A stretch of 64,000 bases of DNA from assembly GCA_002189035.1 (NCBI GenBank), contig NEEC01000020.1, positions 1,798,001-1,862,000 on the forward strand. Reading direction: 5' to 3'. A model generated the notes under the pieces. The model saw only the letters and a list, made by a program, of their open reading frames with translations, was not told the origin of the DNA and searched no databases. Below are positions 2,997 to 60,700 of this stretch, in pieces. How positions within the stretch are numbered: position 1 is the stretch's first letter; each line of letters begins with the position of its first letter. Position numbers and translations under genes: made by a program. Origin of the DNA: Utricularia gibba. Taxonomy: Eukaryota > Streptophyta > Magnoliopsida > Lamiales > Lentibulariaceae.

Positions 2997-4370
2997 TGAG
3001 GACACACATTTTCTCTGAATTTTATAATACAAAATAATTATATTTTATTGTGGTTTAGGTTAGATAAATGTGGTTTTTCATGTTTATGTGTGGTTAAGTT
3101 AATTTTGTGTGTTTATGTTAAAAAGTGGACTAAATCCTTTGATTTAGTCCACCACCTTTCTTACTAATGTTTAACTAAGTTCAGCAGGTAGATCAACCGA
3201 AAAATCAGACTTACAAACGTGTGGAAGAAATGAAAAAAGGCGCAACATCCGAAGAGAGACAAAGAGCATTGTTCTACAGCCGCCTACAGTCTGCAAGTTC
3301 AGGCGGGGAACAGTGCTGAGGTCAAGAACAATGCAATGGAGTGAAGGAGGGAAGATATTTTTTGAAAGAGAGAAGGGAAGCATAGAATGCACACAAGGGG
3401 GCTTCTCCCCAACACGAAAAATACCAACCAGAAGAGGAGAAGGAGGCCTTCATCATCAAGAGCAGCACTAGAGCACAATCCAACACTACTGTTTCAGGCC
3501 ATGAACAGTAGCAACCGGGCGACAGAACAATCTTTATTTCCTTCCGTTTTCTGAACGTTTCGAGTTTCTGTATTTGACTTGCTTACAATGTTCCTGTTAT
3601 TTTCGCCACATTTTCTTAATGAAATCGTGTTTTATTTTCCAAATATGAGTAGTTAGAACCTTAGGAATGTCTTAAGTTGAAGCATGGTGGTGTGGGTCTA
3701 AGATTCTTAATAAAATTCATCATTGTTTATTGGTTCTTGTTTCTATCATTCCATGGGTAGACCTAAGGAGAGAACAAGTAACTTTGCAACTAAGAAGTTT
3801 GGTTTAGAGATAGATCAACAAATCAAGGCGAGCGCAGTAGGTGTTAGTATAGGGTAGAACTAATAGAACCGGGTAGACAAAGTTGTATACGCTTTGCATG
3901 CGGGTAGACCTAATTGTTAGGTTGGTGATGAAGTTGGGAACTAGCTTAGCTGAAAATATGACAAATGACGTGGGTAGACTTAGGCTATTTGAAGTTGTGA
4001 GTCTAGGAACGTGGTAATTTATGTTAATACATTTTAGCACCACACCACCTGCAGATCTTTAAGACATCTTCGTATTATTTTGAGTTAGAACAAGTCCATG
4101 TTACCTTTAGCATTAAGATCTGATATTGTTTACTGATCTTGTTTATTGAACTTGTTTACTACTGTTGGTTTAAGCTTAGACTAAGACTTATTGTTATTCT
4201 GAATTGTGCATTTATTAATACACTGAGCAAGCACAAACTCTTTGTGATCGATCCCATCATCCACTATATAAGTTTTCTAAATTTGTATTTTGTGTAGATT
4301 AGGGCTTATAAATTTATTTGATACGGATTTCTATTTTTATTGCAATGATATTCAGAATTCTCGTTTATCA
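2997..4370 (+). mobile_element. Solo LTR, family B
   Basis: A 1,374-bp LTR beginning TGAGGACACAC and ending CTCGTTTATCA, with perfect 5-bp target-site duplications ATTCC at 2992-2996 and 4371-4375. It is a solo LTR, probably Gypsy type because its 3' end closely resembles family A, which is joined to a Gypsy gag at 31 kb. A strong hairpin lies at 3125-3152. Related fragments occur at about 14,540-15,250 (+) and 21,541-21,685 (-). Confidence 0.88.
3125..3152 (+). repeat. U3 hairpin of LTR-B
   Basis: Perfect 12-bp inverted repeat GTGGACTAAATC / GATTTAGTCCAC around a 4-nt loop, beginning at LTR nucleotide 129. The same core occurs at LTR nucleotide 128 in family A. Confidence 0.85.
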
Positions 4371-5420: not shown

Positions 5421-7397
5421 TCATCGACCTCCAGCAACAAGCGAACTTGAAATGGAGAAGGCCCCCGAGATGGTAATTGATGACGGCGACAGGAACAATG
5501 GAGGAACTTGGTTAAATCCATGGGAATACGAGGTGTCCCGAGGAATGGAAAACTCCTGTACTTGCAACGTTGATGGGTCCTCGAAATACGCCACAATGTC
5601 TCTCATGCTTGGCCGAACCTCAGGCCGAAGATCAGAACACATCAATCCAAGTTTCAGCGTCAACTCCGCTTCATCCTTGGGGAACTCACCGTTCAACTTC
5701 GGATCCATGGCACCTAGCATTTCATTTTTAATCCACATAGAATAAACCCAGTCTGCTAGCGAAGTTTGTAATCCTATGGGTCGCCTACCAGTTGCAACTT
5801 CGAGTAACAAGGCACCAAAACCATACACATCACTGCTCTTGGTGGCCCTGCCTGTCTGTATTTGCTCTGGTGCAACATAGCCAATAGTTCCGACAAGTCT
5901 CGTGGTTGATGCGTCGGAGCCATGATCCTGTAGTTTTGCGAGGCCAAAGTCACCCAATCTTGCATTCCATTTCTCATCTAACAGCACGTTGCTAGGTTTT
6001 ATGTCCCTATGGATCACAACTTGCTCCCATTCTTCATGAAGGTAAACAAGTCCACTTGCCACGCCTTTTATGATATGAAATCGTTGTTCCCAGTTGAGGT
6101 TGGAGTTTGTTCCGCTATGAAGATGTTTTTCCAAACTCCCGTTGAGCATACACTCATACACCAAAAGGAATTCTCCCTGTCGTCTGCAATAGCCTAGCAA
6201 AGGTACTAGATTTCGGTGACGAAGACGCCCAATGCTACATATTTCAGATACAAATTCTTTCATCCCTTGTTTTGAATCGTGAGAAATCTTCTTCACAGCG
6301 ACTTGAGTGTTGGAGTCACATAATAAGCCTTTATAAACTTTCCCAAATCCTCCTGTTCCCAATAATTGGTCGTCTTTAAAGCCTTTGGTGGCGGCATACA
6401 AATCTTTGTATTTGAATCTATGAGATACGTAGTCTCGTTCCCAATTTTCCATCACCTCCGAGTACTTCCGCTTCCTTGTGAAATAGAAGGTTATAACAAG
6501 GACAAGCGTAGCCAATAAAACGACGAGAATAACGGGCAACCCAAATACCAAAACTCTGGACGGTCTCTGACGCCCAACCTTGGGAAGTTTAGAGAGATTC
6601 AACTGGGGCGCCTGGGCATTGATGGCAAAACTCCACCCCATCACGTAGTGTGAAGTTACAAAGGCAGCCGTTGAGAAACCCACATACATATTCTGATTTA
6701 AGATGGGGGAAAGCTCGTACCTCGTTGAAATGAGAGGTCTTCTAGGTTTGGTAGTGTTCATGGGAGCCAGAGCGACCTCAATTGTTCCAGAGGCCCCATT
6801 ATAGTCAACCCAAAGTTGCATTGGTGTGCTAGTGTTGAGTCCAAGGGAAACAAAATCTCCATTTCGATCATCATAGTATCCAGCGGGAGAGCTCTTGATG
6901 GAGAACATACTATTGATGTCGATGCCAACATGATTAGCATTTGAGTCATTGAACTCGGGGTTCAAAAAGGTGTCAACTTCAACAGCGAAGATGTGATTAG
7001 AAGAGTTGCCGTTGTTGGTCGCGTTGAGAAGGCCGATATAGCCTCTGGGTGAAGAACCAGGTAGGCCCCTGGTTGGCGCGAGGACGAAAGCAATCCCCTG
7101 TCCACAGACTGCTCTAGTTTCTGGAACAATTTGGAAGACAAAATGGGTGGAGAAGGAATAAACGGAAGAGTTATCCGTATCCTTGAATTGAAAAGGGGTT
7201 GGGTAGAAGGCGTGGCCGGTTGTCAGCGCGCTGTCGTTGGATAGCCTGAGCAGGCCGTGTGATTGGATTTGCGCTACACCGTCGAGGGCGAGATCTGAAG
7301 GTTTAAAACCATTGAAGGAGAAGGAAGATGCGGCCAATGAGGGGAAGATCCGCAAAATGAAAGGAAGAAGACACAGGAAAAGAGGAGGCATAGGCAT
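5421..7397 (-). CDS. L-type lectin-domain receptor-like kinase, clade IV-like, intronless
   Basis: A 658-residue protein of usual length for L-type LecRKs, which are plasma-membrane receptors in plant immunity and development. In order: hydrophobic signal peptide (about 1-23); legume-lectin domain (about 24-260); transmembrane helix (about 281-306) followed by basic RKRK; kinase domain (about 342-605). The lectin Mn/Ca site has the canonical spacing E140, D142, F144, N146, D151, H156. Kinase landmarks are intact: glycine loop GTGGFGKV (347-354), ATP-binding K369, HRD 463-465 (an RD kinase), DFG 483-485 and APE 509-511. The protein should therefore bind metal and be catalytically active. The C-terminal SSSLVAGGR tail and the HRFKYKDLYAATKGF juxtamembrane segment are typical of Arabidopsis LecRK-IV members. 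The first ATG is chosen because the signal peptide follows at once; a second ATG lies two codons on. No introns or disruptions are seen. It is the only intact gene in the window. Confidence 0.96.
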   Translation of the reverse strand: MPMPPLFLCLLPFILRIFPSLAASSFSFNGFKPSDLALDGVAQIQSHGLLRLSNDSALTTGHAFYPTPFQFKDTDNSSVYSFSTHFVFQIVPETRAVCGQGIAFVLAPTRGLPGSSPRGYIGLLNATNNGNSSNHIFAVEVDTFLNPEFNDSNANHVGIDINSMFSIKSSPAGYYDDRNGDFVSLGLNTSTPMQLWVDYNGASGTIEVALAPMNTTKPRRPLISTRYELSPILNQNMYVGFSTAAFVTSHYVMGWSFAINAQAPQLNLSKLPKVGRQRPSRVLVFGLPVILVVLLATLVLVITFYFTRKRKYSEVMENWERDYVSHRFKYKDLYAATKGFKDDQLLGTGGFGKVYKGLLCDSNTQVAVKKISHDSKQGMKEFVSEICSIGRLRHRNLVPLLGYCRRQGEFLLVYECMLNGSLEKHLHSGTNSNLNWEQRFHIIKGVASGLVYLHEEWEQVVIHRDIKPSNVLLDEKWNARLGDFGLAKLQDHGSDASTTRLVGTIGYVAPEQIQTGRATKSSDVYGFGALLLEVATGRRPIGLQTSLADWVYSMWIKNEMLGAMDPKLNGEFPKDEAELTLKLGLMCSDLRPEVRPSMRDIVAYFEDPSTLQVQEFSIPRDTSYSHGFNQVPPLFLSPSSITISGAFSISSSLVAGGR

Positions 7398-7700
7398 GGG
7401 GTGGGATAAAGCTTAATTATGAAGTCTGAAGGAGTCACAAGAAGGAAGCAAATGGCAGCGGCAAATCAGTAGGCCGTGTTAATTGCTGAAGATGCGTAGG
7501 CTGACTGGCTGGCTTTGGGGCGAGACACCAGTCGCCGGTCGCCGGTCGGTCAACCAAAGATAATAATTGGGTGGTCGTTGGGAGTTGAGAAGGCATTCAG
7601 ATGAAGACAATCTGTATTAAAAATAATAATTGCCTTGGAGAGCAACCTGTTGCCAATCATGATTATCTTCTTCCCCGTCGCATTCCTTGACTTGCTTCAC
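7398..7700 (-). promoter_or_regulatory. LecRK 5' flank with a W-box-like site
   Basis: Upstream region of the LecRK gene. On the gene strand it contains TTGACC at 7548-7553, a WRKY-binding W-box core about 150 bp before the ATG, next to a short direct repeat of the heptamer CGCCGGT at about 7,533-7,547. W-boxes are common in defence receptor promoters, but a single 6-mer is weak evidence. No clear TATA box is seen, so the transcription start cannot be placed. Confidence 0.35.
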
Positions 7701-26379: not shown

Positions 26380-27800
26380 AAAACATAATTATGCCGGTTG
26401 TGATCTCATTGAATTCTTTATTTTTAAGGAAGAGTCAGGTTTTGGAATCCATGTATGGTGTCAAGGAAGAAGATCCTTTATGGTGTGTTGCACTTCGTTT
26501 GTTCACAAAATTAGTTTATCGTTAATTGCTTTTATGTCTCAAGCATGATGCATAAGGTGTGTTATGCCTGAAGGATCATTTAGCAAGTTCTCGATCTTCT
26601 TTGGCTTTCATTGTTCCTACAAAAACTAACCTATCCTTCAAGTAAAAACTCCCTTGGATATGTTGATGTTTTTGTTTATTTTTTTAATGATTTGAGAATA
26701 CGAGTGATGTGTATGCTGTGATGAACATCTAAAGGTCTGTTTACGTTTATTAGCTTCATGGATTGCACCACACTGCACGAATCCATTCTCTCAAATCAGA
26801 AATCCATTGACCCCTCGATGCGCCATGTTGCTGAATGTGATGACCAAATCCAAAAAGCTACATTTATTCTTTTCCCTTGCAATTAAATGGGAAACTTCAA
26901 ATATTTCATCCAACGTCCTTCAAATGTTTTTCTTGTAAATCAACATGGTAATTGCATTAACCTGCACCCCATTCTCACAATTAAAAATATCACAACAAAC
27001 GTGCATTGGTGGTGCCTTCATTTTTTTTTTCCAAATATTGTGAGAATTACAAATGTGTGCATTGCCATGCTTACAATTTTTTATAAAAATATGTATCACG
27101 AGCACTGCAAATGTATAACCAAAAAATTGCAAGTACAACAAATATGCATTGTGATGCTGACATTTATTTTATAAAAAAATTAAAAAAATACAAATGTGCG
27201 TTTTCGGTGCTTATCCATCCATAAAAAATAAGTTGAGATTGCGCCGAATGCAGTAAACCACACGATCCTATTCTCTCAAATTCACGATATCACAAATATT
27301 GTAAATGTGCATTTGTGATGCTTGCCTATTTAAAAAATAATTGCAAGCATCACAGAGGTGTATTATTTTGGTGCTTCTGCTTTTTTATAAGAAAATTAAA
27401 AAAATCTCAAGTATTATGCATACACATTTATGAAAAAAAAATTATTTTTAAAATAAGCTGGGATTCTTAAGTGCAGGATCCTATTCTTCAAATTCTTAAT
27501 GTCAGAAATATTGATATTTTTAATATATTTTTTAAAAAATAAGTTGGGATGCTTATGCTTTTTTATAAAAAAAACTAAAAAAAACCACAAATATCACACT
27601 TGCGTTTCAGTACTTAATCGTTTTACAAAAGAAATCCAAGCACAACAAATGCACATTTGCTATGCTTACCCGTCTACTAAAACATGCATACAAATGATCA
27701 AGAAGATTTTTTTAATAATTCATAAGGTACGGGTTATGCAATTTAATTAAATTTGCATGACCCGACTTGTTTTTTTTAAACATTTTATTAAATTTATTTT
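26380..27800 (+). repeat. Complex repeat, copy 1
   Basis: Modules in order: a TCAAGGAAGAAGATCCTTTA module ending in TTTAGCAAGTTCTCGATC (26,400-26,600); a TGATGAACATCTAAAGG module (26,715-26,760); a GATGACCAAATCC / ATGGGAAACTTCAAA module (26,770-26,960); a palindromic minisatellite array (26,975-27,700); and a short AAATTTGCATGACCCGACTTG module (27,740-27,790). The same modules recur in the same order at 51.2-52.9, 54.0-55.3 and 57.8-60.2 kb. Confidence 0.75.
26975..27700 (+). repeat. Degenerate array of imperfect palindromes, array 1
   Basis: About ten diverged copies of a 55-65-bp unit. The GC-richer core reads roughly AAGCAC-x-GCAAATGTGCATTG-x-GGTGCTT, with left and right halves complementary, and is followed by an A/T spacer around TTTATAAAAAA. 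Clear units occur near 27,100, 27,140, 27,305 and 27,345. Confidence 0.7.
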
Positions 27801-32875: not shown

Positions 32876-33375
32876 TTGGTCGAATTCCTCAGATGCTAGT
32901 ATAGAAAAACGCCTCCTTGTGGATCAGTCTCAGAGAGCACGAAGACCTTGGAGCAGATCTCAAGATCTAAATCTTTTTTATAGATATTTTTGACATATCA
33001 AATCATATCTCCATGAGATCTTTTATTTTGAGTTTAATCAATGTTAATCTCAAAATAACTCTCTATTTAATTTATCCACTTTACCAATTACATCTCATGT
33101 AATTGTGTCATTCTATTTTATATCGATGAGTGACTCTACTATTGTGTGTGACCCTATAGGCTTCTTCAATCAAGCCCGTCATAATGGATTTATTAATTAA
33201 CTCTTAATTAATCAAATCCATCATTATCGATAATGAGTGATGTCTAGCAACATATCATGATCCCCAAGATTAAAGAATAATCAGGTGAACTGAGTGAGCC
33301 TTTCCATAACCAGTCACCATGCAATAAACAGCTTTCATCATACTTATATCTCATTCGATACCAGAACATGGGTGT
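32876..33375. other. LTR-like sequence of unknown family
   Basis: Contains motifs I associate with plant Copia LTRs (CCCTATAGGCTTCTTCAATC, GGATTTATTAATTAACTC) but no second copy or end in this window. No gene. Confidence 0.35.
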
Positions 33376-33585
33376 GTGTCTTTCTGATGTATCGAACTTA
33401 TAATTGCATTCAATCACTAACACTCAATGACCTACTCAAACAATTCGAGTGTCATTACCCTGGGCCCAGGACTTACTGTTGTGTCTTTCTGATGTATCGA
33501 ACTTATAATTGCATTCAATCACTAACACTCAATGACCTACTCAAACAATTCGAGTGTCATTACCCTGGGCCCAGGACTTACTGTT
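33376..33585 (+). repeat. Perfect tandem duplication, 2 x 105 bp
   Basis: 33,376-33,480 and 33,481-33,585 are identical base for base. Because 105 is divisible by three, the enclosing frame (33,294-33,587) stays open and repeats a 35-residue stretch exactly, but that frame has no recognised domain. Identity in otherwise decayed DNA implies a recent duplication or an assembly artefact. Confidence 0.95.
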
Positions 33586-49760: not shown

Positions 49761-51240
49761 ATGTTTGAATGTGTAACTTGCATGAATGACCTGTTTTTTC
49801 ATGCACAGTTAGAACCCCAGAAATCTGATGATGAATTTAATCCATTCTTGCACAGTTTAATCTCAGATTAAGTGCAGTAACCACTATTTGTTGCTTGTAG
49901 TGCTGATTTATCTACTCTGTTTTCTGTTTGTAGTTTTGGAGCCAATAGAAGTATTTTATCAATTATAGTTAAAGTAGTGAATCATTTCAACAAAGACCTT
50001 CCTACTTAATTCAACTTATGCATAGGATCAACAATGAAAAATCGTTTATTCTCTATAGATCGATCTAGATTTATTATTATTATTTTAATTTCTTTGTACA
50101 TTATATGTAGATTTGTATGATCAGAATACAAATTAATTTTTATGAGAAAAATCTTTAGGCTTACAAAACCTATAAAATTTTTCATTCATCACATATCAAA
50201 TAAATTTATAAACTTTAATATACACAACTTCAATGGATTAAATCAAAGTAAACATAAAAAGTCTGCACTTTTTATCCCAAGCGTGGCTCATTAGTTATTA
50301 TATTTTGAAGCAGATTTACAATATAAAGTAAACGAGGTTTTTATTAAGTATTTCAGTGGATAGATTACCTTATTCAAAGATAAAAGTGGTGTGGTTCGGA
50401 AGGACCAGATACTAAATTAGTAAAAGATACTTTTCTTCTTGATGCATCATTCCAAAAATTTATTTAAAAGTCTAATGGACAGATATTTTTCTAATTGTCT
50501 TGGGTTCAGAAATTTTTCCCCATAAAATCATTTATACAATCTTACAAATATTTTACTAGAAAATAAATGAAGTTGTGAAACGTTTACATCAATCCAAGAA
50601 ACTAATAGGTTTTCAGCTATAAGTTTCATGCATAAGTTAAATTAAACACGATTTGGAAGATGATGAAAAAAACAAACTTCTCTAAGAAAACTAGGGATCT
50701 TATTAAACAAAATAACTTACTAGCATTTGGTAAGCATTTAAATTTAAGCAAACATGTTCTGATTCAAAGCTAGTAAACACATTTCCAAGTTAAACCCTAC
50801 CATAGGTAATGCAATTTTAACAGTAACAGTAAACAAGCACAACCAGGCAGATCAAACGCATTTAATGAAACAGTTGCATAGCTGACATGTCTAAATAATA
50901 AAAGTAGTAAATAAAAGTGCCGAAATATTTTGATTGGTCTTCTTATTGAAACGGATCTTTAGGAGAGATTTCGTTCATCATCATTCCTATTCCTTTTTTT
51001 TCCCTCATAATGCTCCTTTTTCCAATACAGATACAGAAATCTGTAAAGATAGGTTTGAACTCAGAATTTAACACCTTATATTGATGATTTCTGTACTCTT
51101 CCAATAAAGCAAGCCTCCATGCATTTGATCAGGAAGAACAACAACAGTTCACATGTTCTAAAAAGAAAGAAAGCATGCTCCAGCAACAGTGATTCACTTG
51201 CCAAATTCATATGAGAAATTGCTGATTCCATTTTTTACCA
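49761..51240. other. Non-coding AT-rich DNA
   Basis: No gene or bounded repeat recognised. Confidence 0.4.
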
Positions 51241-51249
51241 TATTAATTT

Positions 51250-53350
51250 CAAGGAGAAGTTCAGGTTTTGGAATCAATGGAGATCATTTATTTGTTGACA
51301 AAACCAGTTCATTGTTAATTATTTTTGCGTTTCTTATGGCTGAATGATTATTTAGCAAGTTCTCAATCTTATTCGGCTTTGATAGTTCTTTTAGAAGATA
51401 GTTCACTACTCGAGTAAAAACTTCATTAGATGCGTTGGTGCTTTTATTAATTTCATGTTATTTATCTTTTTTAATAATATGAGAATGGGAATGATGTGTA
51501 TGCTGTGATGAACATCTAAGGGTCTGTTTACTTTTATTAGCTTCAAATTAGTAATTCATTGACCCCCAAGCAGCGTGTAGGTGAACATGATGCCCAAAAC
51601 TAAACAATTATATTTATTGTTTTCTCTTATAATTAAGTGCAAAACTTCAAAGATTTCATTGGAGATCTTTCAAATGCCTTTTGTGAATCAACATGGTGAT
51701 TTATTTTAAAAATTGGTTTAAAAAAAAAATAACAATCGTACGGATATCAGTAAACTGCACAACCCCATTTTCTCAAATTAGTAATCCATTGACCTCCGAT
51801 GCACCTTGTTGGCGAATTTGATGACCAAATCCAAGCACTTATATTCATTCTTTTCCCTTATAATTAAACGGGAAACTTCAAATATTTCATCGAAGTTCCT
51901 TCAAATGTTTTTCTTGTAAATAGACATGGTAATTGCGCTAAAATTCACAACCCCATTCTCTCAAATTAAAAATATCACAACATACCTGCATTGGAAGTGC
52001 CTTCCTTTTTTAAAAAAAAAAAAAATTTTGAGAATCTCAAATGTGTGCGTTGCGGTGCTTACAATTTTTTATGAAACAATTAAAAATGTCACAAACACTG
52101 CAAATTACGTTTGTAGTGCTTGACCATTTATAAAAAAAAAAAATTGCAAGTACTACAAATGTGCATTGCGATGCTGACAATTTATTTAAAAAAAATATCA
52201 AAACAACACAAATGCGTGTGTTTTCGGTGCTGGCCCATTTATAAAAATAATTATTTTTAAAAAATAAGTTGGGGTATTGCAGATTGCACTACCGCACGAT
52301 CCGATTCTCTCAATTTGGTAAAGTCACAAGCATTGCGCGCTGGTTGCCCGGTTATATAAAAAATTACAAGGCCCACAAATGCGCATCGTTGTGGGTATAC
52401 TTTTTATATAAAAATTAGAAAATCACAAGTATTGCAAATGCGCATTTCCGGTGATGGTCTATTTATTAGAAAAAAAAAGTTGCACCACCAATATCCATTA
52501 TGGTGCTTACATTTTTTTCTAAAAACATTTAAAATATCATAAACACTGCAAATGTACGTTGGCCATGCTTGCCTATTTATAAAAATAAATTGCAAGTAAC
52601 AGTATTGTGATGCTTATGCTTTTTTGTCAAAAAAACTAAACAAAAACCGCAAGTATCACAGTTATTTGGTTTAAGTGCTTGTTCTTTTATTAAAAAAAAA
52701 AATCCAAGCAAAATGCACGTTTACCGTGCTTACCCATCTATTAGAAAATTGCAAGCAACAATTTTTTTTTAATAACTGATCAAGAAATTTTTTTTTAATA
52801 ATTAATAAGGTTTGAGTCATCCGATTTAATGAAATCTGCACGACCTGACTTGTCGTTTTAAAAAACATTTTATATAATTTATTCTCTAATTAAAAATATC
52901 ACATTAGTTTTCATGTAATTAGATTGTAATAGTTTATCCGGTTTAAAGGTGTGCCAAGTCAAAAGATGCTTGTACTTTGCAATTGAAATATGTGCTTTGT
53001 CTTCTGGATTGCAAGGTATGAATATGCAAGTCATTATAACTAGATACTGTGAGAGACGATGAGCGAGATGGTAAGAAACAACAACCTCCACAGGTTGGAT
53101 GAGCAAGATACGTCTCTAACAATGGTCTTATATTAAGATTCCAGTCGTCATTGCTCCAACGGGATTATCAATAAAACATTGTGTTGCTCTTGAACATTGT
53201 TCTTTAACAATGACCTCTCGATTCAAATAATCTGGATTTTAGTTGGATAAAATGTGCTATTATGATAAAATGTTATTTATATTTTATTAAATTTACATTC
53301 TACTTCTCAAACAATAATATTTTTGTTATATGAGAAATGTTGTTTTCAAA
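51250..53350 (+). repeat. Complex repeat, copy 2
   Basis: Same module order as copy 1: TTTAGCAAGTTCTCAATC (51,350), TGATGAACATCTAAGGG (51,507), two tandem copies of the GGGAAACTTCAAA module (51,550-51,720 and 51,770-51,940), array 2, and TAATAAGGTTTGAGTCATCC (52,800). A further GTGCCAAGTCAAAAGATGC... module (52,950-53,300) recurs near 55,350, 57,310 and 60,220. The 53-codon-scale minus frames inside are chance. Confidence 0.75.
51970..52755 (+). repeat. Degenerate array of imperfect palindromes, array 2
   Basis: About thirteen diverged units at roughly 60-bp spacing; cores near 51,985, 52,040, 52,100, 52,158, 52,212, 52,332, 52,378, 52,437, 52,495, 52,550, 52,601, 52,660 and 52,712. The typical core is GCAAATGTGCATTGCGGTGCTT, preceded by CAAGCAC, so the two halves can pair. 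Spacers are A/T with a TTTATAAAAAA motif. Best preserved of the arrays. Confidence 0.75.
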
Positions 53351-53354
53351 TCAA

Positions 53355-53985
53355 TGGGCACAGGTCGCAACTTGCCGGGTAATAAGTCAGACTCATCGAG
53401 TTATGAGCCATTACGGATTCACGAGTAGACAAGTTGACAGTTTTTGACGCCCAACTCATATCGTACCTGAGTTGACTCGTTACTTGTCTATTCTTCGAGT
53501 CAACCTAGTATGAATTTGTCAACCCGTATTTTCATCTTATTTTGTTAACATATTATTCTAATTTTAAGTTAATTATTTATTGTATGAGAATGTTTTTATT
53601 TATATATAATCTATTTAATCATTAAATATTTGATTTCAAATATAAAGTTTTCCTTATTTTTTTATCAGGCTTGTTTAGCTGTATATAATATAGGTGGAGC
53701 TCAAAACTTTTTTTTAATAATATCAATTTACAAATATTAAATGAAAAAGACATAAAAACTAAATTAAGAAAATTAATCAATTTCAGAACTCCCTAAAACT
53801 CAGCATAGTATATGTTGAATAAAAATAAAAGTAATGTTAATAACTAAAATTATCCAGGTAAGTCACCGAATCGAAAATCACCGATTCGACTCGTACTTGT
53901 TTTTCACGAGTATAGATAAATCATACCATTCTGTATGTGTGGACTCACGCCTAAACTTGGTTGACCTGTACTCATGTCCAAGTCT
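53355..53985. mobile_element. Possible TIR transposon interrupting the repeat
   Basis: The module TTTTCAAATTAATGGATGG... to GGAGATCCTTT (intact at 57,855-57,895) is split here by about 630 bp. The insert begins near TGGGCACAGGTCGC (53,354) and ends near GACCTGTACTCATGTCCA (53,980). These ends are partly inverted copies (TGGGC-ACAGGTC against TGGACATGAGTACAGGTC). No clear target-site duplication was found. Confidence 0.35.
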
Positions 53986-53989
53986 AGAT

Positions 53990-55840
53990 GTTATTAAAAA
54001 GATCCTTTTATGGTGCATGGCTCTTCATTTGTTGACAACACCAGTTCTTCGTTGATTGTTTTTTTTTTCTGATGGTTGTATCTTATGGATGAAGAATCAT
54101 TTAGCAAGTTATCGATCTCTTTTGGCTTCGATTCTTTAGAAGCTAGCTCACCACTCTAGTAAAAAGTAAATTGGATATGTTGATGTTTTCAATAGTTTAT
54201 GTTGTTTACCTTTTTTAATACTTCTAGAATGGAAATGATGCGCATAATGTGATGAACATCTAAGAGTCTATATATGTTTATAAGCTTCATGGACTGCACT
54301 GAATTCCATGACCCCCAGTTTCTCAAATCAGTAATGCATTGGGCCCAAATGTGATGACCAAATCCAAACAATTACATTCTTCTTTTCCCTTATAGTTAAA
54401 TGGGAAAATTCAATGATTTCATAGAAGCTCTTTCAAATATTTTTCTTAGAAATCATGATGGTGATTTATTAAAAAAATGGGGGAGCAATAACCGCACAAC
54501 CCCATTATCTCAAATTGAAAATATCACAACAAATGTGCATTGGAAGTGTGTTCCAATTTTTTCTAAAAAAAATAACGATGTGGTGCTTATGTTTTTTTTT
54601 ATATATAAAGTAAAAATATTACAAGCGCTGCAAATGTGTATTGCGTTGCTTATGCTTTTTTATATATAAAAAAATAAAATATCATCAATAATGCAAATGT
54701 ACATTTTCCATGCTTGCTCATTTATAAAAAATAATTATTTTTTTAATAGAAGTTGGGGGATTCTCTTAATTTAGTAATATCAAATTTATGAAAAAAATAT
54801 TTTTAAAAACAAAATAAGTGGGATTGTGTAGATTGCATTAAATTATATGATCTTATTCTTCAAATTTGTAATATGAAAAATATTGCAAGATATGTATTTA
54901 CGGTTCCATTTATATAAAAATTGCAAGCACTACAAATAAACATTGCACTACTTACATCTTTTATAAAAATGTCACAAGCACTTTAAATAGGCATTTGGTA
55001 TGCGTACCTATTAATAAAAAAAATTGCAACAACCGCCCATGTGTATTGGGCAGCTTATGCTTTTTTATAGAAAAAACTAAAAAAACAAGTATCACACTTG
55101 CGTGTTTTCAGTGCTTATTCTTTTACAAAAAAAAAAAAATGCAAGCAACAATTTTTTTTAATAACTGACTAAGAAGACAATTTTTTTAATAATTTATAAG
55201 GTTTGGGTCATACAATCTAATTAAATTTGTACGACCCGAGTAGTTTTTTTAAAAAACATTTTTTAAAATTTAATTTCTAATTAAAAATATGACATCAATT
55301 TTTTTTTTTTATGTATTAGGACTATATTAGAGTTATAGAGGTTAAAAGTGAGAGAACTCAAAATATGCTTGCCCTTTGCAATTTCAATATATGTGTTGTC
55401 TTTGCTATGATCAGGTATGAAGGTATAAGTAATGATAATTAAAGACACCGAGATTGTTTAAATGATGAGTGAGAAAGTAAGAAATAACAATACTCACCCA
55501 TTCAACGAGTAAGGAATATCTGTGCATACCTTGTTATTTATTTGGATAATATTGCAGAAGAAATTAAGGAGTATTCTTGAAAAAGACATTGTGTTATTTG
55601 GACAAAATGTCATTTATATTGTTATGAATATATTATATGTGCATTTTACTAATTAAAATGAGAAGGAAAAAAAGTAAAATGAAATTTGAGAAGAAGAGCA
55701 TAACATTCTCTAAATCTTGGATAGAAATTTATTTTACCCATTTTCTTAGGTAATTTATTATTAACCACTTCATTCCAGCTTTTTTCATCTGTCTAAAACT
55801 AAGACAATGAAAAAAAAAAAAAGACAGGTTATTTATGAGC
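53990..55840 (+). repeat. Complex repeat, copy 3
   Basis: Modules: GATCCTTTTATGGTGC (54,000), TTTAGCAAGTTATCGATC (54,098), TGATGAACATCTAAGAG (54,250), GATGACCAAATCC (54,352), ATGGGAAAATTCAA (54,400), array 3, TAAGGTTTGGGTCAT (55,197), then the TATTAGGACTATATTAGAG module (55,305) shared with 60,190. It leads directly into the ndhI fragment at 55,847. Confidence 0.75.
54520..55150 (+). repeat. Degenerate array of imperfect palindromes, array 3
   Basis: About eight diverged units of the same type, clearest near 54,535, 54,625, 54,695, 54,935 and 55,030. Confidence 0.65.
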
Positions 55841-55846
55841 ATTCGG

Positions 55847-55912
55847 ATATTCCCTATATTGACTCAGGTCTAGTAGAATCCTTTGCACCAAACAATATGA
55901 GATGCAAGGTAC
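55847..55912 (+). pseudogene. ndhI: Duplicated start of the ndhI insertion, truncated
   Basis: ATATTCCCTATATTGACTCA to AGATGCAAGGTAC corresponds to the first ~22 codons of plastid ndhI, and is nearly identical to 62,090-62,156. About 170 bp of preceding nuclear sequence is shared too, so this is a duplication of an already inserted plastid fragment. It breaks off abruptly into the palindromic repeat. Confidence 0.8.
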
Positions 55913-55944
55913 TAAACAGCACGATCTGATTCTCTCAATTTGGT

Positions 55945-57290
55945 AATATCACAAGTATTGCAAATGTTCATTGCGATGCTGACACCTTTTATAAAAAAAA
56001 TATCAAAAACAATGCAAATGTGCGTTTTGTGCTTGCTCATTTATAAAAAATAATTCTTTTTTCAAAATAAGTTGGGGACGTGCAGATTGCACATAGAGTT
56101 GCGATTGGTTCCAACAGGAATCACGGTTCCATTCCCATACATGGGTGTCTGTACGGTTCTAGTTTGGTTTGATATTATTGGAACTAATGGTTCCAACTCA
56201 TGCAAAACTGATTGGATCGCTGGTTCGCAATTGTGAACCATCGACTCAATTTAAAATATTAAAAAATTCCTATATGTAATTCCTAGACATCTATATAAGA
56301 CAATGTGGATATCTAGAAAATAATCCCAAATGCACTTCCCACATATACATACGGGCTAATGTGAGTGATTGGAGTAAGGATTTTCAGATTTTCGATGCCC
56401 ACAGTAGTGGATCTAGGCATCTAAAACAAATTCCACCAATTATTCATTAAATTAGGTCACGATTCATCTTCAATATCATTTGAAAAACAAAATCATGCAA
56501 TGGGTTAACTAATTCACATCCAACCCACTATTCCCACCTTCAATACGAGCTTAATTAGCTAACATAAGTCTCTCAATTGAACGTAATCATTACATTCAGA
56601 CAGTAACCGATCTACTCCGATTTAGTTCAAGGGTTTTGGAATCTAGTTTCGAACCAAAACCAAAACCATGGTACACAGTGAACCACAGTTTATGAATTGA
56701 TGGTTCACTAAAACCGTATGGTTCGGAACCAATCGCACCTCTAATTGCACTAAACAGCATTATCTGATTCTCTCAATTTGATAATATCACAAGGATTGAA
56801 AATATGCATTGGTGGTCCTTGTCAATTTATAAAAAAAATTGCAACAACTGCAAATATGCATTGCGGTGGTTTCCTGTTTATTGAAAGTAATTACAAGGGC
56901 CAAGAATGTGCATTGTGGTCATATGGTGGTTATATTTTTTTATATAAAAATTAGAATTATCACAAGTATTGCAAATGTGCATTTGCAATGTTTGCACATT
57001 TATGAAAATTTTTTGAAAAAAAAAGCAAGTTGAGATTGTGCATAATGCACTAAACTGCACGATCCTATTCTCTCATATTCATAATATCAAAAATATTGCA
57101 AGCACCACCAATATACATTGCATTGGTTAACAAACAGTGCAAATGTGCGTTTGTGATGCTTGCCTATATGTATATATATATATACGTATAAACGCAAGTA
57201 CCACAAATGTGTATTGTGATGCTTATCCTTCTTTATAAAAAACTTAACAAAAATCAAAAGTATCACAATGATTTGTTTTAAGTGCTTTTT
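55945..57290 (+). repeat. Palindromic arrays 4 and 5, one array split by a transposon
   Basis: Units at 55,945-56,045 and 56,785-57,290 (for example near 56,855, 56,910, 56,965, 57,145 and 57,205). The hAT-like insertion at 56,094-56,743 separates them; joining the flanks at its target duplication recreates the GATTGCACTAAAC sequence found in other copies. An (AT)n run lies near 57,166-57,187. Confidence 0.7.
56094..56743. mobile_element. hAT-like non-autonomous DNA transposon
   Basis: 650 bp with terminal inverted repeats TAGAGTTGCGATTGGTTCC (left) and TAGAGGTGCGATTGGTTCC (right, complement), 18 of 19 matching. The 8-bp flanks ATTGCACA and ATTGCACT match at seven of eight. An 8-bp duplication and a TAGAGG start are typical of the hAT superfamily. 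The interior has repeated GGTTCC/GGAACC motifs and no transposase frame, so it is non-autonomous. Confidence 0.83.
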
Positions 57291-57805
57291 TTTTATCGGG
57301 CATGAAGGTGAGCCAAGTCCAAATATACTTGTCGTTTTAATTTTAATATGTGCTTTGTCTTGTGGATGGCAAGGTATGAATATCTAGCTAGATAATGTGA
57401 GATTGTTTAGACGATGAGCTACACAGTAAGAAACAACGACCCCCACAGAATCGATGACCTGCCATCAGTAAAACATTGTGTTAAGATTCAAGGGTCGGCG
57501 ATGAGCTAGATATGTCTCTAACAAGCCTTCCGTTAAGATTCAAGGGTCGGCGAGCGTCCAGACAAAAGCTCGAATGGGCATCATCAGTAAAACATTGTGT
57601 TATTCTTGAGCATTGTTCTCTAAAAATGACCTGACAATTCAATTAATATGGTTTTTATTTGGATAATGTTGCAGAAGAAATTAAGGACCATTCTTGAATA
57701 AGACATTGTGTTATTATGACAAATTGTTATTTATATTGTTATTAAAATTACATTCTACTTCTTACACAAGAACATGCTATATGAGAAATGTGTTAGGGCA
57801 TATTG

Positions 57806-57978
57806 ACTTTGAATCTGATCCATGGCCTTTGATATCTGAAAGTGCTAAAGTTTTCAAATTAATGGATGGTATCAAGGAAGGAGATCCTTTATGGTGTGTT
57901 ACTGCTCATTTTTTCACAAAATCAGTTCATCATGAATTGCTTTTATCTCTCAAGCATGATACAAGATGTATCTTATGA
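57806..57978 (+). pseudogene. Recurring coding-like fragment, family unknown
   Basis: An open stretch of about 57 codons reads ESDPWPLISESAKVFKLMDG, then IKEGDPLWCVTAHFFTKSVH and LLLSLKHD. Parts of the same sequence, more broken, occur near 26,430-26,600, 51,260-51,360 and 54,000-54,110. The composition is more protein-like than its surroundings, so it may be an exon captured by the repeat. I do not recognise the protein. Confidence 0.45.
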
Positions 57979-58201
57979 CTGAAGCATCATTTAGCAAGTT
58001 CTCAATCTCCTTTAACTTCTATAGTTTTTTCAAAGGCCAGCTCACCACGCAACTAAGAAGTCCATTGGATATGTTCATGTTTTTATTAGTTCTATGTTGT
58101 TTACGTTTTTTAATGCTTCAAGAATGTGAATGATGTGCATGGTGTGATGAACATCAAAGGGCTTTTATATGTTTATTAGCTTCATGGATTGCATTAACCC
58201 G

Positions 58202-58220
58202 CCCCCCCCCCCCCCCCCCC
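58202..58220 (+). repeat. C19 homopolymer
   Basis: Nineteen consecutive C residues at the place where the other repeat copies have only a short CCCC stretch (ACCCCATTCTCTCAAA). Able to form G-quadruplex on the minus strand; also prone to sequencing error. Confidence 0.9.
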
Positions 58221-58319
58221 TCATTTTCTCAAATTAGTAGTGCATTGCCCCCAATGCACCCCATTGGCAAATATGATTACCAAATCCAAATACTTTCTTC
58301 TTTTCCCTTGTAATCAAAT

Positions 58320-59676
58320 TGTTATGGTATGCAGTCTCTAGTGTCATAGTTAGACATAGTGCATGTCTATTGATTATAGCTATGTATGAAGTGAATAAGG
58401 GATGGGGGTCCACATCAGTATACCGGTTGTTTCTAGCAACGAATAGAAAAGGATGCAGGTGCTAACTTAAGTAAAGACTACATGACAACCTTGGGTTAGA
58501 GGGGGTGCTGATTCATGGAGTCTTTTAAGTTCTGGAGGATAGAGTTATTTGGGAAACCTTGAGGATCAAAGTTGTAGAGGATAAGGGATACAGCAAGAGA
58601 GTGAGGGGACGTTCTTGATTCTAGTTATAAGAAGTGATTACTTCTGTAAAGAATAGACTAAATGGGATGATTGCTACTGACTTTTGTTAGAAACATGTTG
58701 CTCATGTTTCTTTCGAACAAGATGTGGCTATGCAAGCTCATGTTTATTCCTTGTCATTTGTTGTTCTGAAAGGACCAGCAGAACATGCTCTTTCGAAATG
58801 ATCATCTCTTTTGTTGACGGTATTTGAAAATCCATTTAAAGTCCCTAAAATACTCTTATTTCAGCTTTAACTGCTCCTTTTAAGGGATGGGTGCCCTTGT
58901 TGGTTGTTTTAAAGCATGTTTTCCCCTCTTGAAGTACATAAAGCTCCCAATGTTCTTTATCTATGTACTATGTGAACATATGTTAGAAAATGGTGAGGGT
59001 GTGGACCCACACTTCTAGCAACATGGTTTAAACCATGGAATTTATAGCTAACTATGTCAGACATGTATTAAGCATCCTTATGAGATAAGCGAAGCAAGAA
59101 AGATGAGGGAAACATGTTTATCTATGATATGATCTAGGCTTGGAGGTGTTGATTGGTTTGTGGCTCTTCTGATCTCTATTGAAAAGCTTTGGACAATACA
59201 TGATCCGACTCCTAAGACTTGGAGGTGATGTCTAAACCAAAGGGTCAAGGGACTTCGTTTAAGATAGGCTATGAGACTCATAATGTGCTTTGTGCTTGTT
59301 TTTTTAAATTTTACGATCAAACGTTTCTCTCTTTACTTCACTCATGTTTATCTTTTTGTAAGCTGCAGTAGCATGATCACTTCATGTCTTTAACTTGTTC
59401 TAGGTATGGAGGGCAATAGCTAGAGGTAAGGTGATCTACCAAAGTAGGAGTGCACATTTCCAAGCTGTGGAGAGCTTCTTAGTGGCTATAGGATAATAAG
59501 CTGCGTGTGGGATGTGTCCCATTTAGACTTGCTTAAGCTGGTGATGTAACAATACGTATGTAAATCGATCATAAATTGCACTTTATGTAAATTATGTGGG
59601 TAAGGTTATCTTAGATTCCTACATCTGGGGGTTGGCAGTCATGACTGTGCCTTGGCCTTGAGCATGGGTCCTGACA
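58320..59676 (+). mobile_element. Solo LTR, family D
   Basis: 1,357 bp, TGTTATGGTATGC to GGGTCCTGACA, with perfect 5-bp target-site duplications CAAAT at 58315-58319 and 59677-59681. It interrupts the complex repeat exactly: the pieces on either side join to the uninterrupted version seen at 26,880 and 51,865. Probably a Gypsy LTR, judged from the CCTGACA end, but no internal region is present. Confidence 0.9.
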
Positions 59677-59744
59677 CAAATGGGAAACTTCAAAGATTTC
59701 ATCGAAGTTCTTCAAATTAAATCAACATGGTGATTTATTAAAAA

Positions 59745-60150
59745 TCACAACAAATGTGCATTGGGAGTGCCTTCCCAATTTTTTTTAAAAAAAATCACGA
59801 TGCGGTGTTATGTTTTTTAATAAAACATTAAAAATATTACAAGCACTGCATATGTGTATTCTGTGCTTTTGCCATTTTATAAAAAATAAATAACAAAAAC
59901 AACACAAATGTGCATTTTCAATGCTTGCCCATTTATAAAAAAAGTAATTCTCTTTTTAAAAAAGAAAAAGAAGTCGAGGATTCTCTCAATTTAGTAATAT
60001 CACAAGCATTGCAAATATGTGTTGGTGATGCTTATCCATTTATAAAAAAGTTTCCAGCACCACAAATGACAAGCGGGCATTGTGGTGCCTACGTTATTTT
60101 ATATAAAAATTAAAAATATTAAAAGTACTGCAAATGTGCGTTTAAATATT
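59745..60150 (+). repeat. Degenerate array of imperfect palindromes, array 6
   Basis: About six diverged units, for example near 59,755, 59,850, 59,910, 60,015 and 60,060 (AGCACCACAAATG ... GCATTGTGGTGCCT). Confidence 0.65.
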
Positions 60151-60700
60151 TTTATAACTAAATGTATATGACATCAATTTTTTTATGTAATAGGACTATA
60201 TTAGAGTTATCAAGTGTAAAAGTGAGCGAACTCAAAATATGCTTGCCCTTTGAAATTTAAATGTGTGTTGTCTTTGATATGATGGCGTATGAAGGTATAA
60301 TAATTAAGTACTGTGAGATTGTTTAAGAATATAAGAAACAACAATCATGACGCATTCAACAAGAAATTTATATCTTTAACAATGACGTCCCATTAAGATT
60401 TAAGTGGTCAGTGAGCGGTTATACGAAGGCTTCAATGGTAGTCGTCAATAAAATATCACGTGATTCTTGAACATTGTTTTATAATAATGGACTTCCATTT
60501 GTGTTATCTGGTTTTTATTTGGATAATGTTGCAGAAGAAATTAAGGAGTTTTCATAAAAAAAATTGTCCTATTTGGACAAAATGTCATTTATATTATTAT
60601 GAATATATTATATTATATGTGCATTTTATTTGTTAGAATGAGCAGCAGAAGTCAAATGAAAAATGAGGAGGGCGATGTTCTAAATGACTTTTGAGTTAAT

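Follow-up and report, generated by a model that had tools for sequence, protein, structure and literature searches.

The DNA analysed here, a stretch of 64,000 nucleotides from Utricularia gibba (the window), contains about 50 diverged units of about 55 bp, which lie at 26.98–27.68 and 51.97–60.14 kb. The units were found with nhmmer, using an HMM built from the window units, and by a repeat-family search, which between 51.9 and 60.2 kb returned two families of 50–66 nt, one with 17 copies and one with 12. With the HMM grown from these units, no further units above background were found elsewhere in the window. TRF had been proposed for this region in the original prediction, and at default settings it reported no array between 51.9 and 60.2 kb, because the units are too diverged, the mean identity among copies being about 62%. 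The consensus core of the unit, AAGCAYYRCAAATG-TG-CATTTGYRRTGCTT, is an imperfect palindrome, which explains why one unit HMM profile matches both strands of most units.

The window also carries an L-type lectin receptor kinase gene on the minus strand at 5,421–7,412, with an open frame of 663 aa, and Copia genes are also near. A perfect tandem duplication of 105 bp is found at 33,375–33,585, and since the match in TRF is 100% it appears to be recent.

Arrays and flanking gene remnants

Clustering of 188 units gave two subtypes of nearly equal size, A (consensus AATATCACAAGCATTGCAAATGTGCATTTGCGGTGCTTGCCCATTTATAAAA) and B (consensus AAATTACAAGCACCACAAATGTGCATTGCGGTGCTTATACTTTTTTATAAAA). Of 112 pairs of adjacent units, 88 consist of one A and one B, as compared to a mean of 56.5 and a maximum of 71 in 2000 shuffles, and the spacing is 52 bp from A to B and 61 bp from B to A. 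Taken together, the alternation and the spacing mean that the basic period is a dimer of about 113 bp, formed by two imperfectly palindromic half-units, A and B, of about 55 bp each. The arrays contain from a few to about a dozen half-units. The repeat of 55–65 bp first described is thus recognizable in the half-unit, while the true period is that of the A/B dimer.

The flank upstream of the arrays contains a coding exon with open-frame relatives across the genome. In a more complete copy at 1,437 kb of contig C317 (L051) the same exon is part of an open ORF1 of 201 aa that ends in a stop codon, and transposase exons follow 0.5 kb downstream. Remnants of both genes were located in the window by tblastn with the L051 proteins, and the arrays were delimited by their nhmmer units; all features are on the plus strand. 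The first copy consists of a remnant of the C-terminal exon of the Myb/SANT-like ORF1 at 26,436–26,642 (59% aa identity, E 3e-20) and an array at 26,979–27,682. In the second, an ORF1 remnant in two pieces at 51,068–51,414 (E 3e-23) is followed by an array with alternating A and B half-units at 51,967–52,749 and a DDE_Tnp_4 transposase fragment at 52,933–53,034 (E 3e-7). The same exon is repeated at 54,008–54,136 (E 3e-6), before the third array at 54,521–55,135 and a transposase fragment at 55,320–55,439 (60% aa identity, E 1.8e-11; genome-wide E 5.8e-8). The fourth array, at 55,945–57,290, is split by an insertion and is followed by a transposase fragment in two pieces at 57,292–57,380 (E 2e-4). 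The fifth copy has an ORF1 remnant at 57,832–58,044 (59% aa identity, E 4.5e-21, or E 1.3e-24 when the exon served as query), an array at 59,741–60,143 and a transposase fragment, again in two pieces, at 60,194–60,299 (E 0.001).

The ORF1 exon thus precedes four of the arrays in the window and a transposase fragment of the L051 type, short at 30–40 aa, lies 3' of four. The remnants that flank the arrays are on the same strand, and the order ORF1, array, transposase piece is repeated head to tail. The original prediction counted five clusters; the arrays are present, but they are not independent of each other, as one is divided by the insertion and the flanking segments are duplicated.

The insertion that splits the fourth array (56,095–56,742) is 648 bp long, with terminal inverted repeats of about 20 bp (TAGAGKTGCGATTGGTTCC) and near-identical flanks, ATTGCAC, and by its look it is a hAT-like MITE. 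Another insertion, of 1,357 bp at 58,320–59,676, has TG...CA ends, lies between a 5-bp duplication, CAAAT, and looks like a solo LTR. A third, of about 630 bp, is found at 53,358–53,986; the matching copy on contig C321 (L034) is without it, and there the ORF1 remnant is uninterrupted. Adjoining an ORF1 remnant is also a run of about 20 C (58,201–58,220), which may stem from the assembly or from slippage.

The carrier element and its copies

The flank exon by itself had no meaningful match in Pfam or PDB. The N-terminal part of the L051 ORF1 matched Myb_DNA-bind_3 with an E-value of 3e-4 and 22.1 bits, just under the curated cut-off of 23.6, and the match of L051 itself to DDE_Tnp_4 was weak (E 0.09). 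The L051 transposase pieces gave 151 matches in the genome. Several of them fall on DDE_Tnp_4 hits, among them those at C4:2168 kb, C142:354 kb and C413:2105 kb, and the protein matches loci that score over the DDE_Tnp_4 cut-off. An ORF1-like exon followed by a same-strand transposase was observed at C142:353.7–355.4, C451:3267.0–3268.5 and C402:2494.7–2493.6 kb, and further at C402:2353.6–2352.7, C460:536.3–537.8 and C2:2766.6–2767.9 kb. Transposase fragments also lie directly 3' of the arrays in L031, L033, L034, L035 and L041. The pairing of ORF1 and transposase is the plan of PIF/Harbinger elements, as set out in the account of the Medicago elements (PMC2213677), and the superfamily is most likely PIF/Harbinger, an assignment based on the gene pair and not on the element's termini.

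The original prediction suggested that the repeats could be the internal minisatellite of a Helitron-like or other element. A transposable element is indeed the most likely carrier, but the rolling-circle affiliation does not fit what flanks the arrays. Satellite-like internal arrays are known in Helitron-related elements, for instance in oyster (PMC7492417), but a Helitron or another rolling-circle element is extremely unlikely here, since the flanking proteins are a PIF/Harbinger ORF1 and a DDE_Tnp_4 transposase, which belong to cut-and-paste transposition. A search with Helitron_like_N (PF14214) gave no match, but neither did its control. Helitrons are further marked by a Rep/Helicase protein and by a 5' TC and a 3' CTRR end with a hairpin, and such ends were not located.

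In L051 no unit was found by nhmmer within the 3.3 kb examined. In the copies with arrays, the surviving transposase starts near residue 38 of the third L051 piece and its N-terminal half is missing, and the array stands where this half would be. No element was seen with both an array and an intact transposase. A location of the array inside an intron of a host gene or of ORF1 was considered and rejected, as the stop codon of the L051 ORF1 precedes the array position. Genome-wide matches to the unit, collected with DNA blocks and a degenerate pattern as queries, are concentrated on clusters with ORF1 or transposase remnants. In L040 and L042 units are present and neither ORF1 nor transposase was detected; L042 also has an open frame that resembles a B3-domain gene.

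BLAST with a single array gave about 20 clusters in the 100 Mb searched, most of them on contigs C317 and C321; their flanks are repeated too. The junctions seen in the window recur on C321 (L034) and at C317:1,700–1,711 kb (L031 and L032). Three copies at C317:1,514.5, 1,536.1 and 1,557.7 kb (L017, L016 and L019) are equally spaced, 21.5 kb apart, and have near-identical scores, which indicates a recent large tandem duplication. On two contigs the composite has undergone tandem as well as segmental duplication, and a few copies are dispersed. Farther downstream, L036, L038 and L039 have a region in common, but this is a dispersed repeat of its own, which is also present at 2,997–4,370 in the window.

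Strict scans for terminal inverted repeats (TIR), which in PIF/Harbinger elements are of the G...GTT type, with a 3-bp target duplication (TSD) found none in the flanks examined around the copies, and looser criteria gave 30 candidates against 16–28 in shuffles, no clear excess. These scans concern old copies, which have been truncated and duplicated in tandem, and the element ends may lie beyond the flanks examined. The missing ends are also what would be expected if an unrelated minisatellite happened to lie beside an ORF1 remnant and owed its spread to tandem and segmental duplication instead of transposition. The repetition of the same junctions in the tandem copies is in line with this, and so are the flanks at C3:4,833 kb and C321:190 kb, which are more than 90% identical beyond the element. 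However, the copies on C244, on C4 and at 25.5 kb in the window have the element in common and differ in their outer flanks, and all of them keep the array just after ORF1, which makes a chance neighbour an unlikely explanation.

We consider it probable that a plant PIF/Harbinger-like DNA transposon left deletion derivatives and that the arrays are internal minisatellites of these, old and in decay. The fuller element has ORF1, coding for the Myb/SANT-like protein, followed by the DDE_Tnp_4 transposase on the same strand. The derivatives lack the stretch from just past the ORF1 stop codon into the catalytic domain of the transposase, and repeats of the A/B dimer of about 113 bp take its place. 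Slippage, unequal exchange or abortive gap repair inside the element may have given rise to the array, which is the model proposed for the MtPH elements of Medicago (PMC2213677). Hairpin formation may have aided the expansion of the array.

Hairpin pairing in the units

In 29 aligned units from the window, the 14 pairs of the hairpin are formed in 75.1% of the cells, and a control in which the 3' partner was shifted by 1–3 columns brings the pairing down to 31–53%. Among 142 units, 36 have a fold that ranks in the best 5% against dinucleotide shuffles of the same unit, where about 7 would be expected. When the right arms were letter-shuffled as a control, 37% of the 188 units lay above the 95th percentile. 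The hairpins are individually weak, with a mean MFE of -6.5 kcal/mol and a mean z of -0.8 (142 units), and a Watson-Crick score of at least 8 is reached in just 4% of the 188 units. The palindrome is thus real and beyond chance, also if single units are weak, and the palindromic units first reported at 26.9–27.8 and 51.9–60.2 kb are borne out by this contrast in pairing as well as by the HMM and repeat searches.

That many units keep two complementary halves, as the original prediction noted, is no evidence of selection. When the right arms were dealt among the 29 window units, 74.2 ± 1.0% of the pairs were still formed as compared to 75.1% with the true partners, and 119 of 500 shuffles reached the observed value; dealt arms pair equally well. 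Two finer measures on the same units lean upward, further pair types (12 of 500) and a covariation score (42 of 500), but sequence kinship alone can raise both of them without any structure. Compensatory changes between the arms, for which the original prediction proposed a test, did not appear: in an alignment of 162 units none of 15 column pairs tested beat its shuffles at p<0.1, and the hairpin energy was -6.77 with true partners against -6.69 ± 0.19 with permuted ones, which shows no compensation within units. With A and B pooled the partners match slightly better than random (Watson-Crick score, p=0.006), but within each subtype the match is no better than random (A, p=0.29; B, p=0.13), which implies that the pooled excess reflects the existence of two subtypes. 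Selection on arm pairing is not supported, and nothing indicates that the hairpins have a function. The palindrome would have been inherited from the founding unit and would now be eroding with no selection on pairing.

Transcription of the arrays into hairpins that feed small RNAs would agree with the excess of arm pairing over shuffles. It is nevertheless a very remote alternative, as compensatory changes are lacking, the hairpins are as weak as described above, no Rfam family matches the window, and 24-nt siRNA silencing of a transposon, the ordinary kind, needs no hairpin.

Subterminal repeats act as protein binding sites in other DNA transposons, and the half-units could be sites for the Myb/SANT-like ORF1 protein of the element or for its transposase. 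The element that houses the array codes for a DNA-binding ORF1, and the most constant columns of the unit, AAAT, CATT and TG, fall in the arms. A dimeric protein on a symmetric site would explain the palindrome, and repetition would raise the affinity. We find this quite improbable, however, because the arrays accompany dead ORF1 and transposase pieces and much of the symmetry is lost in individual units, and the lack of an array in the 3.3 kb of L051 means that it is not needed between the two genes. In a bolder form, which we regard as highly improbable, the A/B dimers would be a putative array of sites for the ORF1 protein, and the Harbinger derivative would have multiplied the sites by which it is recognized where its transposase used to be.

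Comparison with known systems

Decaying minisatellites inside Harbinger derivatives, the reading we prefer, would make a plant minisatellite that had no explanation a marker of one transposon family. The results also give a clean negative: when the consensus of a diverged repeat family is palindromic, it does not follow that the hairpin is selected.

Oyster Helentron and Helitron-related elements resemble the present ones in being non-autonomous and in having internal short tandem arrays that are dispersed together with the element, but the oyster elements are of the rolling-circle type (PMC7492417), whereas the coding remnants here are those of Harbinger. The MtMaster/DcMaster lineage M of PIF/Harbinger has orf1 followed by TPase on one strand, like L051 and several other loci in this genome, but the passages on that lineage mention no internal minisatellite (PMC2213677).

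The nearest precedent is MtPH-A6-4 of Medicago truncatula, described in 2007 with 2–35 imperfect tandem repeats of 60 bp that are confined to that subfamily and are associated with rearrangement and with abortive gap repair (PMC2213677). Both are Harbinger-type elements with imperfect internal tandem repeats of about 60 bp, variable copy number and rearrangements. In MtPH-A6-4 the repeats have a subterminal position and a triplicated AAACNNCTTATT motif, no palindrome is reported for them, and TPase comes before orf1 (PMC2213677); the present arrays lie between ORF1 and a transposase remnant and have palindromic A/B half-units, and a TIR was not found. The present unit consensus has no AAACNNCTTATT triplets and the gene order is ORF1 before transposase, which implies that the arrays are a parallel case and not a member of the MtPH-A6-4 subfamily. 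They would then be, after Medicago, a second example of Harbinger elements growing internal repeats of about 60 bp, with another unit and in another position.
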